Positions 13,953-61,507 of a stretch of DNA of 64,000 nucleotides are shown here, one piece after another. A model generated the notes under the pieces. It was not told the origin of the DNA. It searched no databases and saw nothing but the letters and a program-made list of their open reading frames with translations. A program made the position numbers and the translations under genes. Numbering within the stretch: position 1 is the first letter of the stretch; every line of letters starts with the position of its first letter. Origin of the DNA: Bacteroidales bacterium (GTDB lineage Bacteria > Bacteroidota > Bacteroidia > Bacteroidales > UBA932); NCBI GenBank assembly GCA_012728975.1, contig JAAYDZ010000006.1:28753-92752 (forward strand). Reading direction: 5' to 3'.

Positions 13953-15284
13953 ATGAAATATTCTGACGTTGCATACGAAGAGATGCTAGAGTGGCTTTTT
14001 ACTCGTTTCCCCTCTTATCAGAGAGTAGGGGACAGGGCTTTCAAGCCGGGTATTGATACAATGCGCAAATACATTTCTCGGTTGGAATATCCTCACTTAC
14101 AATATAAGGCAATCCATATAGCAGGTACAAACGGTAAAGGTTCAGTATCTCATATGACTGCTTCTGCTCTTGCCTGCTGCGGAGTGAAAGTTGGACTCTA
14201 CACATCGCCGCATCTGACTGATTTTCGTGAGAGGATGAAAATAATATCACAAGGAGATGCGGGATGTACTTATGAGATGATTTTAAAAGAAGAAGTCTTT
14301 GCTTTTATGGAGCGATGCCGCGAATTTCTTGATAACTACAATCCCTCATTCTTCGAAATTACAACGGCGATGGCACTTGACTGGTTCCGTAGCCGGGATA
14401 TTGATGTAGCAGTAATTGAATGTGGCTTAGGAGGTCGTCTGGACTCCACTAATATTGTCACTCCCATCCTTTCGGTAATCACCAATATAGGGCTGGAACA
14501 TTGCGAATATCTCGGCCATACGATTGAAGAGATAGCGCGTGAGAAGGCAGGTATTATAAAAGCCGGAGTCCCTGCACTTGTAGGGGAGAGTACACCGGAG
14601 ACACGCGTTGTTTTTGAACAAGTGGCTGCGGAAGTGGGAGCTTCGGAACTTTTCTTTGCCGAGGAACTTCCACCCTTTTTTACTCTATCTCTTGATGAAA
14701 TTGATCTTAAAGGGGATTGTCAGCAGCGCAATCTGAGGACAGTTTCGGCTATCTTGTCATTGATGTCTACGAAAGGATTGTTGAATACCAAATGTGATAT
14801 AAACGAGCTTTCTAACGGTGTCTCAAATGCTGCCGCCTTTACAGGGCTACGTGGAAGATGGGAGAGACTCAGAGAGCCGGCAAACAACGGCGGTATTCAG
14901 GGCAAGGCTCCAATCATTTGTGATACGGCTCATAATGCTCACGCAATGCGATGGGTACGTGAACAGATAGATAAGATTTCGTGTGAATATGAGAATATAT
15001 TTCTTATATTGGGCGTTGTCGCTGACAAGGATTTAGATAGCATAGCCTCATATCTTCCAAGGGATGTTCACTTTATTTTGACCAACAGTACTGGGGAGAG
15101 AGCTCTGCCTGCGGTAAAACTGGCGAACTGTCTTTCAGATCATGGTATCAACGGTCACATAACAGCTTCCGTGAAGGAGGCACTGGAGAAGGCCGATTCG
15201 CTGGCCGGAGAAGAGGACCTGATATTTATCTGCGGTAGCAATTTCGTCGTAGCTGAAGTGTTGGAGATAGTAAGTAGTGTGTAA
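13953..15284 (+). CDS. folC: bifunctional folylpolyglutamate synthase/dihydrofolate synthase
   Basis: HIAGTNGKGSVSHMTAS, GLYTSPHLTDFRERM, ECGLGGRLDSTN, VITNIGLEH motifs. Confidence 0.95.
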   Translation: MKYSDVAYEEMLEWLFTRFPSYQRVGDRAFKPGIDTMRKYISRLEYPHLQYKAIHIAGTNGKGSVSHMTASALACCGVKVGLYTSPHLTDFRERMKIISQGDAGCTYEMILKEEVFAFMERCREFLDNYNPSFFEITTAMALDWFRSRDIDVAVIECGLGGRLDSTNIVTPILSVITNIGLEHCEYLGHTIEEIAREKAGIIKAGVPALVGESTPETRVVFEQVAAEVGASELFFAEELPPFFTLSLDEIDLKGDCQQRNLRTVSAILSLMSTKGLLNTKCDINELSNGVSNAAAFTGLRGRWERLREPANNGGIQGKAPIICDTAHNAHAMRWVREQIDKISCEYENIFLILGVVADKDLDSIASYLPRDVHFILTNSTGERALPAVKLANCLSDHGINGHITASVKEALEKADSLAGEEDLIFICGSNFVVAEVLEIVSSV

Positions 15285-15480
15285 TGTGTAGTGTTACGTG
15301 TTGCGGGGTGCGTGGTACGAGGAAGTATTGAGTTTTAAGTGAGTAGTGTGGAGTAATGTGTAATGAGTTCTGAGTATGGAGTATGGAGTATGGAGTATGG
15401 AGTATGGAGTAGTGAGGAGTAGGTATGGGGTACGAGAAAGTTTAGAGTAAGTAAAGTAAATAATAAGTAATTATAGTAAG
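15269..15480. repeat. heptanucleotide array C (long, three unit types in one array)
   Basis: AGTAAGT AGTGTGT AATGTGT AGTGTTA CGTGTTG CGGGGTG CGTGGTA ... (AGTATGG)x5 at 15373-15407 ... decaying into AT-rich AGTAAGTAA; starts inside the last folC codons. Confidence 0.9.
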
Positions 15481-15525: not shown

Positions 15526-16614
15526 ATGCAAAAAAGAAGATTTTTTTCGGTGGCTTTATTGCTCTTGGTAACCTTTTTTTCTTTAGGATGTACTGAAGAA
15601 ACGCTTGAGGCGAGGATTGAGCGTCTGCACAAAAAGATGTTCACGATTGATACTCACAACGATTATTCAATGTGGCTTGAGAATCCGGATGGGGATTACG
15701 GCGTTAAGGGAGGGCAGGTTTCATTTCAGCAGATGCATGATGGAGGGTTGGATGCTGCTTTCTTTGCGGCGTATCAGGACCAGGGTCCTATTGATCCAGA
15801 GTTCCACCGTTTTGCGCGTGAATATGCTGACACTTTGATATTACTACTCAAGCAATATGCTGAACAGAATAGCGAACTCGGTGCAATTGCCACTTCTATA
15901 AAGGAGATGAAGGCCCTCAAGAAGGCCGGTAAGGTTTCTCTCTTTCTTTCAATAGAGAATGCCTGTTGTCTGGGTGATTCACTACCGCTGGTTAAATACT
16001 ATTATGATCAAGGTGTGAGAATGATAGGGCTTACACACAACGGCAATAATGCTATAGCTGATGCCGGCACTACCAAGATAAAATTACATGGAGGCCTTTC
16101 AGACTTTGGCAAAGCGGTGATTGCCGAGATGAATCGTCTAGGTATTGTGGTTGACCTCTCGCATGCCTCCAGAGATGCAACACTCCAGGCCGTACAGGTG
16201 AGCAAAACACCAATTATCGCCAGCCATTCCTGTGCTTTTGCCGTTCGCGAACTTTCACGCAATCTTTCCGATGAAGAGATTATAGCAATTGCAGAAACGG
16301 GCGGTGTAGTACACCTTGCCCTGGATGCCTGGTTACTCCGTTATGGTCCTGATTTCAGTGCCGCTTCGTTAGATGATTTCATGAAACACCTGCATTATAT
16401 CATCGATCTGGTGGGAATAGATCATGTGGGAGTAGGCAGTGACTTTGACGGAGGTGGTGGATTGGTTGACTGCAAGGATATGAGCAAGTATCACAATCTT
16501 ACGAAACGCCTTATCGAAGAGGGGTTCTCCGATGAGGATATAATAAAAATATGGGGAGGCAATTTCCTCCGTGTCTTTGAAGAGGTAGAACGTTACGCTG
16601 CAGAGCAGCGATGA
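15526..16614 (+). CDS. membrane dipeptidase (renal dipeptidase, M19 family), lipoprotein
   Basis: FTIDTHNDYSMWLEN, MIGLTHNGNNAIADAGTTKIKLHGGLSDFGK, DLSHASRDAT, IASHSCAFAV, VGVGSDFDGGGG. Confidence 0.93.
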   Translation: MQKRRFFSVALLLLVTFFSLGCTEETLEARIERLHKKMFTIDTHNDYSMWLENPDGDYGVKGGQVSFQQMHDGGLDAAFFAAYQDQGPIDPEFHRFAREYADTLILLLKQYAEQNSELGAIATSIKEMKALKKAGKVSLFLSIENACCLGDSLPLVKYYYDQGVRMIGLTHNGNNAIADAGTTKIKLHGGLSDFGKAVIAEMNRLGIVVDLSHASRDATLQAVQVSKTPIIASHSCAFAVRELSRNLSDEEIIAIAETGGVVHLALDAWLLRYGPDFSAASLDDFMKHLHYIIDLVGIDHVGVGSDFDGGGGLVDCKDMSKYHNLTKRLIEEGFSDEDIIKIWGGNFLRVFEEVERYAAEQR

Positions 16615-16690
16615 TAGTTCAGAGTTCTGAGTATGTAGTCCTGAATCCTGAGTTTTGAGTTTTGAGTTTCGAATTTCGAATTTCGAGTTA
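16614..16690. repeat. heptanucleotide array D (TGAGTTT type) filling a convergent intergenic gap
   Basis: ATAGTTC AGAGTTC TGAGTAT GTAGTCC TGAATCC TGAGTTT TGAGTTT TGAGTTT CGAATTT CGAATTT CGAGTTA, 11 units in exact phase between two stop codons. Confidence 0.9.
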
Positions 16691-21165: not shown

Positions 21166-21217
21166 ATCTCTCTTATTTTATTACACATTACTTTATCTTT
21201 TCATCCTTTCCTTTGAT

Positions 21218-21280
21218 TCTACATACTACCCACTACATACTACCCACTACACACTACCCACTACCCACTACATACTATAT
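21218..21280. repeat. heptanucleotide array E (ACTACCC/ACTACAY)
   Basis: TCTACAT ACTACCC ACTACAT ACTACCC ACTACAC ACTACCC ACTACCC ACTACAT ACTATAT; the last 3 units lie in or over the 3' end of the Hdr-like CDS. Confidence 0.93.
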
Positions 21281-30817: not shown

Positions 30818-32431
30818 ATGAAATTTAATAATTCCACATTATTGCTTATATCACTCCTTTTCCTGAGCACGAATCTCTACGCACAGGAGCTTTACGATCG
30901 TATGGATGATCAGTACAAGGAGAGTTGTACCTCCATTATGGTAGCCTCCGGAGCTTCATCCGACGGCTCAGTGATGATAGGGCACACCTGTGATTCCAAC
31001 TACCGCACCTGGCTTACTATCGAGCCACGAAAGAATTTCTCAATTGGTGATATGGAATCTGTCTATGAAGGTATGATGCATAACGAGGAGCCCTGGGATA
31101 TGCGCAATGTGGTGGAAAAGGGACGTATTCCCGTGGTTGGGACAGAGACCTATAGATTTTTGAATGTGGCTTATCCCTGCCTTAATGAAAAACAGCTTGC
31201 CATCGGTGAAACCACTACTGAGGGACGTCCTGAACTGCGCAACAAAGCCGGTATGTTTTATATTGAGGAGCTCCAAAGAATGGCACTTCAATATTGCAAA
31301 ACAGCCCGCGAAGCCATCGCATTGATGGGTCGTCTGGGTGAAGAGTATGGTTATGCAGATTGGGGAGAATGTCTTACTGTGGCTGATAAAAATGAAGTAT
31401 GGCACTTCGAAATATATGGTTCGGGCCCGGGCAACCCCAGCGCTATCTGGGTAGCACAGAGGATTCCTGATGACCACGTAGGGATATCTGCCAACATTCC
31501 CCGAATTGGAAAGGTGGATTTCAATGATAAAGAAAATTTTATGTATAGCCGTGACATAAAGGAACGAGCCAAGAAAACCGGTTTTTGGGACGGCAAAGAG
31601 GATTTTATATTTCATAAGATAGTATCGGGAAGAAAACCTTTTTCTATTCGCGAATTTTTCGTATTATCCACTCTTGCACCTTCGCTCGGCCTCACTTATG
31701 ATGCTGAAGAACTTCCCTTCTCCGTCAAACCTGACGAGAAGGTGACACCTGAAAAGATGTTTGAGCTCTACCGTTCGACCTACGAGGGCACCGAATATGA
31801 CATAGTAAAGGATCTCTCCTACACGGCACATAGACGCGTGCGCCAGACTGATGGCATATACAAGGAGTATGACGAGAAAGTCTATCCTATATCTGCATTT
31901 ATGCCGAATGATCTTCAGAATTTGCTCAACGAGATCAAACCCGGTATTGTTGGGAGATATCGTGCTATCGCCCTTGTGAGATGCTCCTATTCACATATCA
32001 TTAGACTCCGCAACTGGCTTCCGGATGAAGTCGGTGGTGTGGCTTACTTTGCCTTTGACAACCCTGCTCAAACCCCCAGAATTCCAATCTATGCAGGCGC
32101 AACTGAGCTGCCTCAGAGTTTTGGAGTATGTGGACAGCATCGCTATCGTGAAGATGCAGCGATATGGGCCTTCAGAGAGACCAATCGCATTGCCGCAATC
32201 AATTGGGACAAGACCAGAAAGATCATAGAGCCGGAGATGGCTGCCTACGAAAGAAGTATGATGGCTTCTACAATGCTGGAAGATCAGGCTGTAGCTCTAC
32301 TCAAAGAGGGCAAAAACGAGGAGGTAGAAGAGTTGCTCAATCAACATACAAGTTCGTTTGCTGCCTCCGTTATGGCCCGTTGGCGTGAGCTCAAAGGCCG
32401 AATCCTGGAAATATTTATTAGAAGTATGTAG
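30818..32431 (+). CDS. C69 family dipeptidase (Ntn hydrolase)
   Basis: Signal peptide; CTSIMVASGASSDGSVMIGHTCDSN; IGETTTEGRPEL. Confidence 0.88.
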   Translation: MKFNNSTLLLISLLFLSTNLYAQELYDRMDDQYKESCTSIMVASGASSDGSVMIGHTCDSNYRTWLTIEPRKNFSIGDMESVYEGMMHNEEPWDMRNVVEKGRIPVVGTETYRFLNVAYPCLNEKQLAIGETTTEGRPELRNKAGMFYIEELQRMALQYCKTAREAIALMGRLGEEYGYADWGECLTVADKNEVWHFEIYGSGPGNPSAIWVAQRIPDDHVGISANIPRIGKVDFNDKENFMYSRDIKERAKKTGFWDGKEDFIFHKIVSGRKPFSIREFFVLSTLAPSLGLTYDAEELPFSVKPDEKVTPEKMFELYRSTYEGTEYDIVKDLSYTAHRRVRQTDGIYKEYDEKVYPISAFMPNDLQNLLNEIKPGIVGRYRAIALVRCSYSHIIRLRNWLPDEVGGVAYFAFDNPAQTPRIPIYAGATELPQSFGVCGQHRYREDAAIWAFRETNRIAAINWDKTRKIIEPEMAAYERSMMASTMLEDQAVALLKEGKNEEVEELLNQHTSSFAASVMARWRELKGRILEIFIRSM

Positions 32432-32520
32432 TATGTAGTGTGTAGTGTGTAGTGTGTAGTGTGTAGTGTGTAGTGTGTAGTGTGTAGTGTGTAGTGTGTA
32501 GTGTGTAGTGTGTAATATGT
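32423..32520. repeat. heptanucleotide array F: 2x AGTATGT, 11x AGTGTGT, 1x AATATGT
   Basis: 14 contiguous units in perfect 7-nt phase; supplies the TAG stop (32429-32431) of the preceding gene and fills nearly the whole gap to the next ATG. Confidence 0.98.
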
Positions 32521-32529
32521 ATTTATAAG

Positions 32530-33321
32530 ATGAGTATAAAAGGACTGAAAAATTTTCGTGATCTCGGTGGTATCAAAGCTGGGGATAAGCATCTTAGAAA
32601 GGGATTTCTATTTCGTAGTGAAGTACCGGTGAAGGTCTCTGCAGAGGAGATGCTTCGATTTAGAACCCCGTTTGAGATAGATATGTTAATTGATCTTCGC
32701 ACACAATATGAAGCGGAAGAGAAGCCCTATACTCTACCCGAAGGAGTGGAGTATCTCCATATGCCTATGTTCGAAGAATCATTGATGGGCATAACCAGAG
32801 ATTCAGGCTCTAGTGTTGGTAAATATCTTATTCGCAAATATAATAGAAAGGAGATAAGGCACCATCTTCCGGATATTGAAAAACTCTACATAGATGTGAT
32901 GAAAGAAAAGTCTGTTTTGGAGATGACAGGCAAAGTCATGCGACAGGTAATTTCCAATACTCTAGAGTGGAAGTCAACTCTATTTCACTGTTCATGGGGC
33001 AAGGATAGAGCCGGGGTCCTGGCTGCTTTTCTTCTTTCCCTCTTGGGTGTTGGTATGGCGGAGATTGTGAAAGATTATACCTATACCAACAGAGCCGTAA
33101 GATCCAAAGCGATACAGTACGCTGTACTTGTATTTCTCTTCAAACAAGATAGGGTTGCCGCGAGAAAGGTGTGGCGTGGATCTCTCGCAAAGCCCAATTA
33201 TATCAGAGGCGTATTTGAGGCAATCGAGAGTGATTACGGTTCGACTGAAAATTTCTTCAGGGAAGCCCTTGGTATCAGTGACGAATTGCGTGATGCTTTT
33301 CGCGACAGGATGTTAATTTGA
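32530..33321 (+). CDS. tyrosine-protein phosphatase (Y_phosphatase3-like)
   Basis: NFRDLGGIKAGDKHLRKGFLFRSEVP; active-site HCSWGKDRAG. Confidence 0.85.
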   Translation: MSIKGLKNFRDLGGIKAGDKHLRKGFLFRSEVPVKVSAEEMLRFRTPFEIDMLIDLRTQYEAEEKPYTLPEGVEYLHMPMFEESLMGITRDSGSSVGKYLIRKYNRKEIRHHLPDIEKLYIDVMKEKSVLEMTGKVMRQVISNTLEWKSTLFHCSWGKDRAGVLAAFLLSLLGVGMAEIVKDYTYTNRAVRSKAIQYAVLVFLFKQDRVAARKVWRGSLAKPNYIRGVFEAIESDYGSTENFFREALGISDELRDAFRDRMLI

Positions 33322-34644: not shown

Positions 34645-34742
34645 CCACACTCACACCCGCACCCCGTAACCCGCAACGCTTAACCCACACCCCGTACCGC
34701 GCAACTCGCAACCCGTAACCTGCACCTCGTACCCCGACTCAC
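34645..34742. repeat. heptanucleotide array G (GYAACCC type)
   Basis: CCACACT CACACCC GCACCCC GTAACCC GCAACGC TTAACCC ACACCCC GTACCGC GCAACTC GCAACCC GTAACCT GCACCTC GTACCCC GACTCAC: 14 units in perfect phase. Confidence 0.95.
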
Positions 34743-55231: not shown

Positions 55232-55909
55232 ATGAAAAGAGTTTTATCGTTTCTTACGGATCTTGTTCCGAATAACAACAAACCCTGGTTTGATGCCAAT
55301 AAGGCACGTTATAAGGAAGCACAGGCGATTTTCAACGATTTCGCCTCAGATCTTTTGGAGCGTGTGCAGAGTTTTGACCCCGAAGTCAGAGGTCTCACTC
55401 TAAAGGATTGCACCTACCGTTTCTATAGAGACTTAAGATTCAGTAAGGACAAAACTCCATACAAGAAGCATTTCGGCATTTTCATTGCTAAAGATGGTAA
55501 ATGCAGCGGCCATTCCGGTTACTATTTCCATATAGAACCCCCTCATGCGGGCTACCTGGGCGGTCATTTGATGTGCTGCGGTGCCTACGCTCCGGAGCCA
55601 AAGGTGATGCGCAGCATTAGGGAAGAGTTTATGCTCAACGGTGAAGCTCTGGTGAAAGCAATGTCAAAGGCCAAAGGATTTGAAATGGAATGGGACGGAG
55701 CCCTGAAGAAAATCCCCCGGGGTTTTCCGCAGGACTCCCCATATGCCGATTATTTCCGACTGAAGAAAATACTTATTACACGCTATTTGGATGATGCTTT
55801 TATCCTGGAGCCCGATCTCGCAAAACGTGCTGCCGACCTATTTGCCACCTGCACCGAATTCAATACCATTCTCAACCGAGCCATTGACTACGCCTACGAA
55901 GAATATTAG
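55232..55909 (+). CDS. DUF2461 family protein
   Basis: LTDLVPNNNKPWFDANKARYKEA, YRFYRDLRFSKDKTPYKKHFGIFI. Confidence 0.92.
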   Translation: MKRVLSFLTDLVPNNNKPWFDANKARYKEAQAIFNDFASDLLERVQSFDPEVRGLTLKDCTYRFYRDLRFSKDKTPYKKHFGIFIAKDGKCSGHSGYYFHIEPPHAGYLGGHLMCCGAYAPEPKVMRSIREEFMLNGEALVKAMSKAKGFEMEWDGALKKIPRGFPQDSPYADYFRLKKILITRYLDDAFILEPDLAKRAADLFATCTEFNTILNRAIDYAYEEY

Positions 55910-55911
55910 GG

Positions 55912-56015
55912 TAGTTCTGAGTTCTGAGTGTGTAGTGTGTAGTACCCCGTACCACTTACCCAACAACATTTAAGAATACCACGTACCTCGGAACGCGTAC
56001 CTTTCACCACTCACT
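55912..56015. repeat. heptanucleotide array J with mid-array strand switch between convergent genes
   Basis: TAGTTCT GAGTTCT GAGTGTG TAGTGTG TAGTACC | CCGTACC ACTTACC ... ACGTACC TCGGAAC GCGTACC TTTCACC ACTCACT. Confidence 0.9.
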
Positions 56016-61311: not shown

Positions 61312-61401
61312 AATACATATATGCTACACACTTCACAATTCACAATAAAACTTACTTAATGATCACAATATTTAAACGAATATTACCCCTTAATTAATCA
61401 G

Positions 61402-61507
61402 CTACACACCTCTCAACAACCCAAAACCCAGAACTATACCACGTACCACGCACCCCGTAACCCACAACCTGCAACACGTAACTCGTAACCCGCAACTCGT
61501 ACCACTA
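61402..61507. repeat. heptanucleotide array L (CGYAACY type)
   Basis: CGTACCA CGCACCC CGTAACC CACAACC TGCAACA CGTAACT CGTAACC CGCAACT CGTACCA (61442-61504) in perfect phase, ending at the CTA (TAG) stop. Confidence 0.95.

Follow-up and report, generated by a model that had tools for sequence, protein, structure and literature searches.

The gene encoding a C69 family dipeptidase (Pfam PF03577, E 2.9e-56; 30818..32431, plus strand) is followed on the same strand by a gene encoding a member of the tyrosine phosphatase family (Y_phosphatase3, Pfam PF13350, E 2e-48; 32530..33321). An array of heptamers is found at their junction, at positions 32423-32520 of the window, i.e. the whole stretch of 64,000 nucleotides analysed. 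On the plus strand the array is made of two AGTATGT (32423-32436), eleven AGTGTGT (32437-32513) and one AATATGT (32514-32520) units. This composition had been indicated in the original prediction, and both the reading of the sequence and TRF agree with it. The TRF call (32423-32514, period 7, 98% matches, score 170) is the top-scoring array of the window. The heptamers had also been described as filling the gap between the dipeptidase stop and the ATG at 32530. This is correct for 89 nt, but the first 9 nt (32423..32431) are coding, as they read AGT ATG TAG and correspond to the Ser-Met-stop end of the dipeptidase ORF. A 9-nt spacer (32521..32529) separates the array from the phosphatase start, and the stop-to-start gap measures 98 nt. 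On the sense strand of the array each of the three frames meets a TAG triplet every 21 nt. Because the array starts at the dipeptidase stop and carries stops in all frames, no reading frame is shifted. The complementary unit ACACACT is stop-free in every frame, and the antisense ORF at 32341..32592 (minus strand, 83 aa, composed of TTHYTLH repeats) is therefore a by-product of the array, dismissed as spurious already in the original prediction.

The array had been singled out as a candidate hypervariable VNTR. It is not a single special case but one of many degenerate heptamer arrays dispersed in the genome. Eight clear period-7 arrays were found in the window; at the same threshold, no arrays were found there for the other periods from 4 to 12. 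Two arrays (15268-15322 and 15353-15420, plus strand) are located at the 3' end of a plus-strand gene ending at 15284, and one (16639..16689, plus) is in sense to a plus-strand gene ending at 16614. The array at 21216..21280 (minus) lies over the stop, at 21261, of a minus-strand gene, to which it is in sense. The array at 34656..34720 (minus), made of GGTTRCG units, is found beyond the stop (34739) of a minus-strand gene, again in sense orientation. The array at 55913..55943 (plus) starts 3 nt past the stop of a plus-strand gene ending at 55909, and that at 61437..61499 (minus) is in sense to a minus-strand gene and 5 nt past its stop at 61505; a further weak array (61324-61346) is found near the latter. 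In 464 kb of the same genome 19 arrays of period 7 were counted, along with 10 of period 9 and 9 of period 14, a multiple of 7; the remaining periods tested gave 0 to 3 arrays each. The pattern (RGTNNNK)x4 has 149 matches in the genome, versus 5 for the reversed control. Units can be assigned to the classes AGTRTGT, AGTGGGT, AGTTCYG and GGTTRCG.

A dinucleotide Markov shuffle of the 464 kb yielded no period-7 arrays at the same threshold, and a chance origin of the array as low-complexity sequence can thus be excluded. An assembly artefact is conceivable in principle, the genome being a draft MAG and repeats assembled from short reads being prone to mis-sizing, but heptamer repeats are carried at the same site by the independent assemblies of sister species. 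Taken with the shuffles, this refutes an artefact as the explanation of the existence of the array, and artefact or chance are together extremely improbable. Several arrays are located at about 200 nt or less from a contig end (C5, C53 and C62 in this genome, C53 in genome G105, C60 and C113 in genome G306), which suggests that arrays break short-read assemblies, and are hence under-counted. One long palindrome (attcaaataacacgggc ... gccgtgttatttgaat), a candidate dispersed hairpin element or terminator, occurs past two arrays of the genome (loci L098, ~15100-15180, and L112, ~1118-1220). In the gene ending at 15284 of the window (14326 at locus L118), the array encodes the final residues of the protein (IVSSV, IVCSV), which are unlike the C-terminus of array-free relatives. 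Arrays may hence rewrite protein ends.

The position of arrays relative to genes was assessed in 1.36 Mb sampled from this species and four sister species, each represented by one draft MAG, in which a copy number possibly reflects a consensus. Gene calling relied on a plain longest-ORF script, and 59 intergenic arrays were compared with simulated arrays, set at random position and orientation within the same gaps. The sampled stretches were partly picked for holding arrays, which affects density, and the orientation and distance tests less so. A gene in sense is found on the 5' side of 45 of the 59 arrays (27.9+-3.7 in simulations). As many as 34 (8.8+-2.8 in simulations) start at most 30 nt past the stop of the upstream sense gene, or overlap it. 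Divergent gaps are depleted, as they hold 2 arrays versus the 16.0+-3.4 simulated. No bias was observed for the gene on the 3' side (32/59, simulated 31.4). The same tendency towards a 5'-side gene in sense recurs in three other families of the order (23/31, 8/11 and 16/24). Placement tracks the upstream gene, by its stop and its strand, and not the downstream gene; the array is therefore a feature of the upstream gene end.

Genes hosting arrays often terminate with TAG (23/33, versus 238/988 of the others; OR 7.2, p 8e-8). By a slightly different rule, which led to count 39 hosts, the stop codon falls inside the array in 19, and is TAG in 17 of these. About half of the arrays begin past the stop, yet keep the sense orientation, which the stop-codon constraint alone does not force. 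Replication strand was discarded as the cause of the orientation, since plus and minus arrays coexist within the same 64 kb, each following the strand of its own upstream gene. A role as antisense insulators of convergent genes was similarly rejected: array rates per gene 3' end do not clearly differ between convergent and co-directional gaps.

Heptamer repeats were found in the dipeptidase-phosphatase gap in all of the five sister species examined, but the units are different. The gap measures 81 nt in UBA1392, 199 in UBA3543, 115 in Go_SlDig_bin_255 and 87 in USDV_maxbin.150. At the protein level, identity to these four species is about 62% for the phosphatase, 86-89% for the dipeptidase and 89-91% for IspG. 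In UBA3543 AGTGTGT is replaced by units of the GGTTGCG class, and degenerate heptamers of the AGTTCTG class are found in the fifth species, G013. Array and phosphatase start are separated in the sister species by a non-repeat leader, much longer than the spacer described above; among the species compared, a distance of 9 nt between array and ATG is found only here. Recent expansion and variable length, both envisaged in the original prediction, thus find correspondence across species, in the differing units and in gaps ranging from 81 to 199 nt, and the comparison supports a fast turnover of repeats at the site. In array-free relatives the dipeptidase end RSM* is kept, often as AGTATGTAG or AGTATGTAA, and is followed by ordinary sequence. 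Because these relatives share the RSM* end, the first unit is coding sequence of ancestral origin and probably acted as the seed of the repeats, and the array was probably nucleated on the Ser-Met-stop end of the dipeptidase gene.

Conservation of sites is not peculiar to this locus. In a comparison of orthologous 3' ends, to which a small number of orthologs contribute from more than one species, an array is present in both members in 7 cases, in one member in 5 and 1, and in neither in 42 (OR 59, p 3e-5). Some of the single-presence pairs still show degenerate heptamers, and shared sites often change unit vocabulary. Pattern matches are numerous in 8 of 40 genomes of the genus, and just 2 occur in a ninth. 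No arrays were found in the gaps of 400 kb from four array-free congeners. Array-bearing species cluster in an IspG tree (0/500 shuffles as low), but one, G009, groups weakly with the array-free G028 and G029; because of this the tree is compatible with one or two origins.

Arrays with other vocabularies are widespread across Bacteroidales. The AGTRTGT, AGTTCYG and GGTTRCG units found here have counterparts in AGTTRAG and AGTCYAG in G009, and in AGTGTTK and AGTTTTT in G306. In G009, a distant congener (IspG 73%), arrays are sometimes arranged head-to-head, as inverted tracts a few nt apart (loci L129-L136). In many Bacteroidales genomes (e.g. G061, G092, G108 and G085) matches to the reversed control pattern equal or exceed those to the forward pattern, which suggests that heptamer arrays with yet other vocabularies are abundant there. 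In G306 (L225, corresponding to G306:C82:20300-24000; L218 and L224) heptamer arrays are spaced about 600 nt, all in one direction. Past each of them lies a similar GC-rich segment that terminates with a TAACT...TGATTATCA-like sequence, an arrangement reminiscent of an array of cassettes or of a longer element in dispersed copies. As they partly look like copies of a longer element, the G306 arrays were weighted as weaker evidence.

The closest known kind is represented by the GGGNATC and GGGGA(C/T)T heptameric repeats of Xanthomonas and Nostoc (Rehm et al. 2015, PMC4692102). These are dispersed and degenerate, are located on the coding strand within 50 bp of stop codons, or overlap stops, and are under-represented between divergent ORFs; related species carry them at the same gene pairs, but length and sequence vary (PMC4692102). 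Their G3 tracts have been proposed to form G-quadruplexes, four units being preferred, and no role was found for them (PMC4692102). The Bacteroidales arrays are similarly dispersed, degenerate period-7 arrays, stop-proximal on the sense strand and rare in divergent gaps. In contrast, AGTGTGT, AGTATGT and AGTTCTG units have no GG or GGG tract, TAG or TGA occur at unit junctions, and vocabularies are diverse and lineage-specific. Because no GG is found at 32423-32520, the array can be assigned to this wider kind only, and not classed as a GGGNATC repeat. TAACTGA direct repeats, described in Beggiatoaceae, cyanobacteria and five Bacteroidetes (MacGregor 2015, PMC4679880), are also intergenic and dispersed, and form long arrays in some Bacteroidetes, but are mostly located a few nt upstream of start codons (PMC4679880). 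They feature one fixed unit, whereas many units are found here, and neither TAACTGA nor its complement occurs in this array; the present arrays, moreover, are anchored at stops, and their association to 3'-side genes equals simulation. Phase-variable simple sequence repeats, such as the AGAT tract located between promoter and start of Moraxella uspA2 (PMC4679880), are like this array short, perfect tandem repeats in an intergenic gap, changeable in length by slippage, but here the geometry does not seem suited to promoter spacing or frame switching, and placement follows the upstream stop. The short tandemly repeated repetitive heptanucleotides of Calothrix, a cyanobacterial intergenic family (cited in PMC4692102), are comparable by description as intergenic heptanucleotide tandem families, but units differ. 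The open-access papers searched contain no report of the present Bacteroidales heptamer family.

Taken together, the data fairly favour the view that the array was expanded by slippage and belongs to a lineage-specific heptanucleotide family, which prefers gene 3' ends, in sense orientation, at or just past the stop. Most likely the upstream gene end gave rise to the array, which would not serve as a switch of the downstream gene. A heptamer at the conserved Ser-Met-stop end of the dipeptidase (AGTATGTAG) would have provided the seed. Repeat slippage would have extended it downstream, the eleven identical AGTGTGT units marking the latest expansion, and the growing array would have displaced most of the leader known from sister species. 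The position would be tolerated because a TAG-bearing heptamer stops all three frames, and leaves the upstream protein essentially unchanged; promoters, as found in divergent gaps, and coding interiors would be avoided. Growth by slippage, in the only orientation that maintains stops in every frame, would account for position, stop overlap, TAG excess, avoidance of divergent gaps, length change and runs of identical copies. Position, orientation, stop overlap and the persistence of the site in several species with changing units are direct observations. We infer both the slippage mechanism and the nucleation at a native stop, as well as the lack of a regulatory role dedicated to the phosphatase. 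Slippage from independent seeds leaves unaccounted the vocabulary common to unlinked loci, and the differences in vocabulary from one lineage to another. To explain these vocabularies one may have to invoke a trans-acting factor, or copying from one locus to another. Slippage by itself does not account either for the sense orientation of arrays beginning past the stop, which leaves room for such copying or for a 3'-UTR function.

The original prediction had assigned to copy number a possible influence on the phosphatase. That the array is a contingency VNTR, copy number tuning spacing, expression or coupling of the phosphatase, would fit both the variation of the gap between species and the close approach of the array to the ATG, but seems improbable. 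Relative to downstream genes arrays are placed at random, they track the upstream stop, and the many arrays preceding convergent genes cannot serve a downstream start. A link to the phosphatase is also unsupported in that array frequency per gene end is about equal before convergent and co-directional genes. Sister species, furthermore, retain the non-repeat leader between array and start, and a scan of the sigma-70 type, which does not cover Bacteroidota promoters, gave no promoter-like site in or beside the array. No match to transcription terminators or Rfam families was found at the array either, nor any RNA structure or hairpin above shuffles, and a classical regulatory element at the locus has no support. 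A local effect on phosphatase translation may nonetheless occur, because only 9 nt lie between the array and the ATG.

Site conservation across species could equally denote selection for a 3'-UTR function. The array would act as an element of the upstream gene, whose sense RNA, rich in G/U and poor in C (C-rich in antisense), affects the stability of mRNA 3' ends, the action of Rho or antisense transcription, perhaps via a protein reading the heptamers. The sense, stop-proximal placement of even those arrays that begin past the stop argues for this, as do the similar rules holding in Xanthomonas and Nostoc (PMC4692102) and the sharing of ortholog sites while units change, as if presence of an array outweighed its exact letters. 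Still, such a function is rather unlikely: just about one tenth of the 3' ends with usable gaps carry an array, the four congeners sampled have none, convergent neighbours are not preferred over co-directional ones, RNA structure does not exceed shuffles, and no regulatory role was seen in the Xanthomonas study (PMC4692102). Unlikely to a higher degree is that lineage-specific heptamers are written by a mobile or copying process, such as template switching, ectopic gene conversion or a dedicated enzyme, slippage being secondary. A vocabulary common to unlinked loci within a lineage, and different between lineages, would be so explained, as would the change of unit class at the same gene end (AGTGTGT here, the GGTTGCG class in UBA3543). 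However, the first unit at the dipeptidase locus is native coding sequence and needs no insertion, and an unsystematic inspection showed neither an enzyme next to the array nor a duplicated target or the boundary of an element. More speculative still is that Bacteroidales lineages keep each their own 3'-end heptamer vocabulary through a trans-acting factor, or through a dedicated copying process, recognising transcribed DNA or RNA close to stops; in either case sites would persist, and units would be replaced.

From a single eye-catching VNTR the analysis leads to a rule that can be tested order-wide: heptamers at stops, on the sense strand, in which the gene is kept, the letters change and vocabularies belong to lineages. 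The same placement is found here in the absence of G-tracts, which suggests that formation of G-quadruplexes, stressed in Xanthomonas and Nostoc, does not define placement. Why the period is 7, and why stop codons and the sense strand are involved, are questions testable with these genomes.
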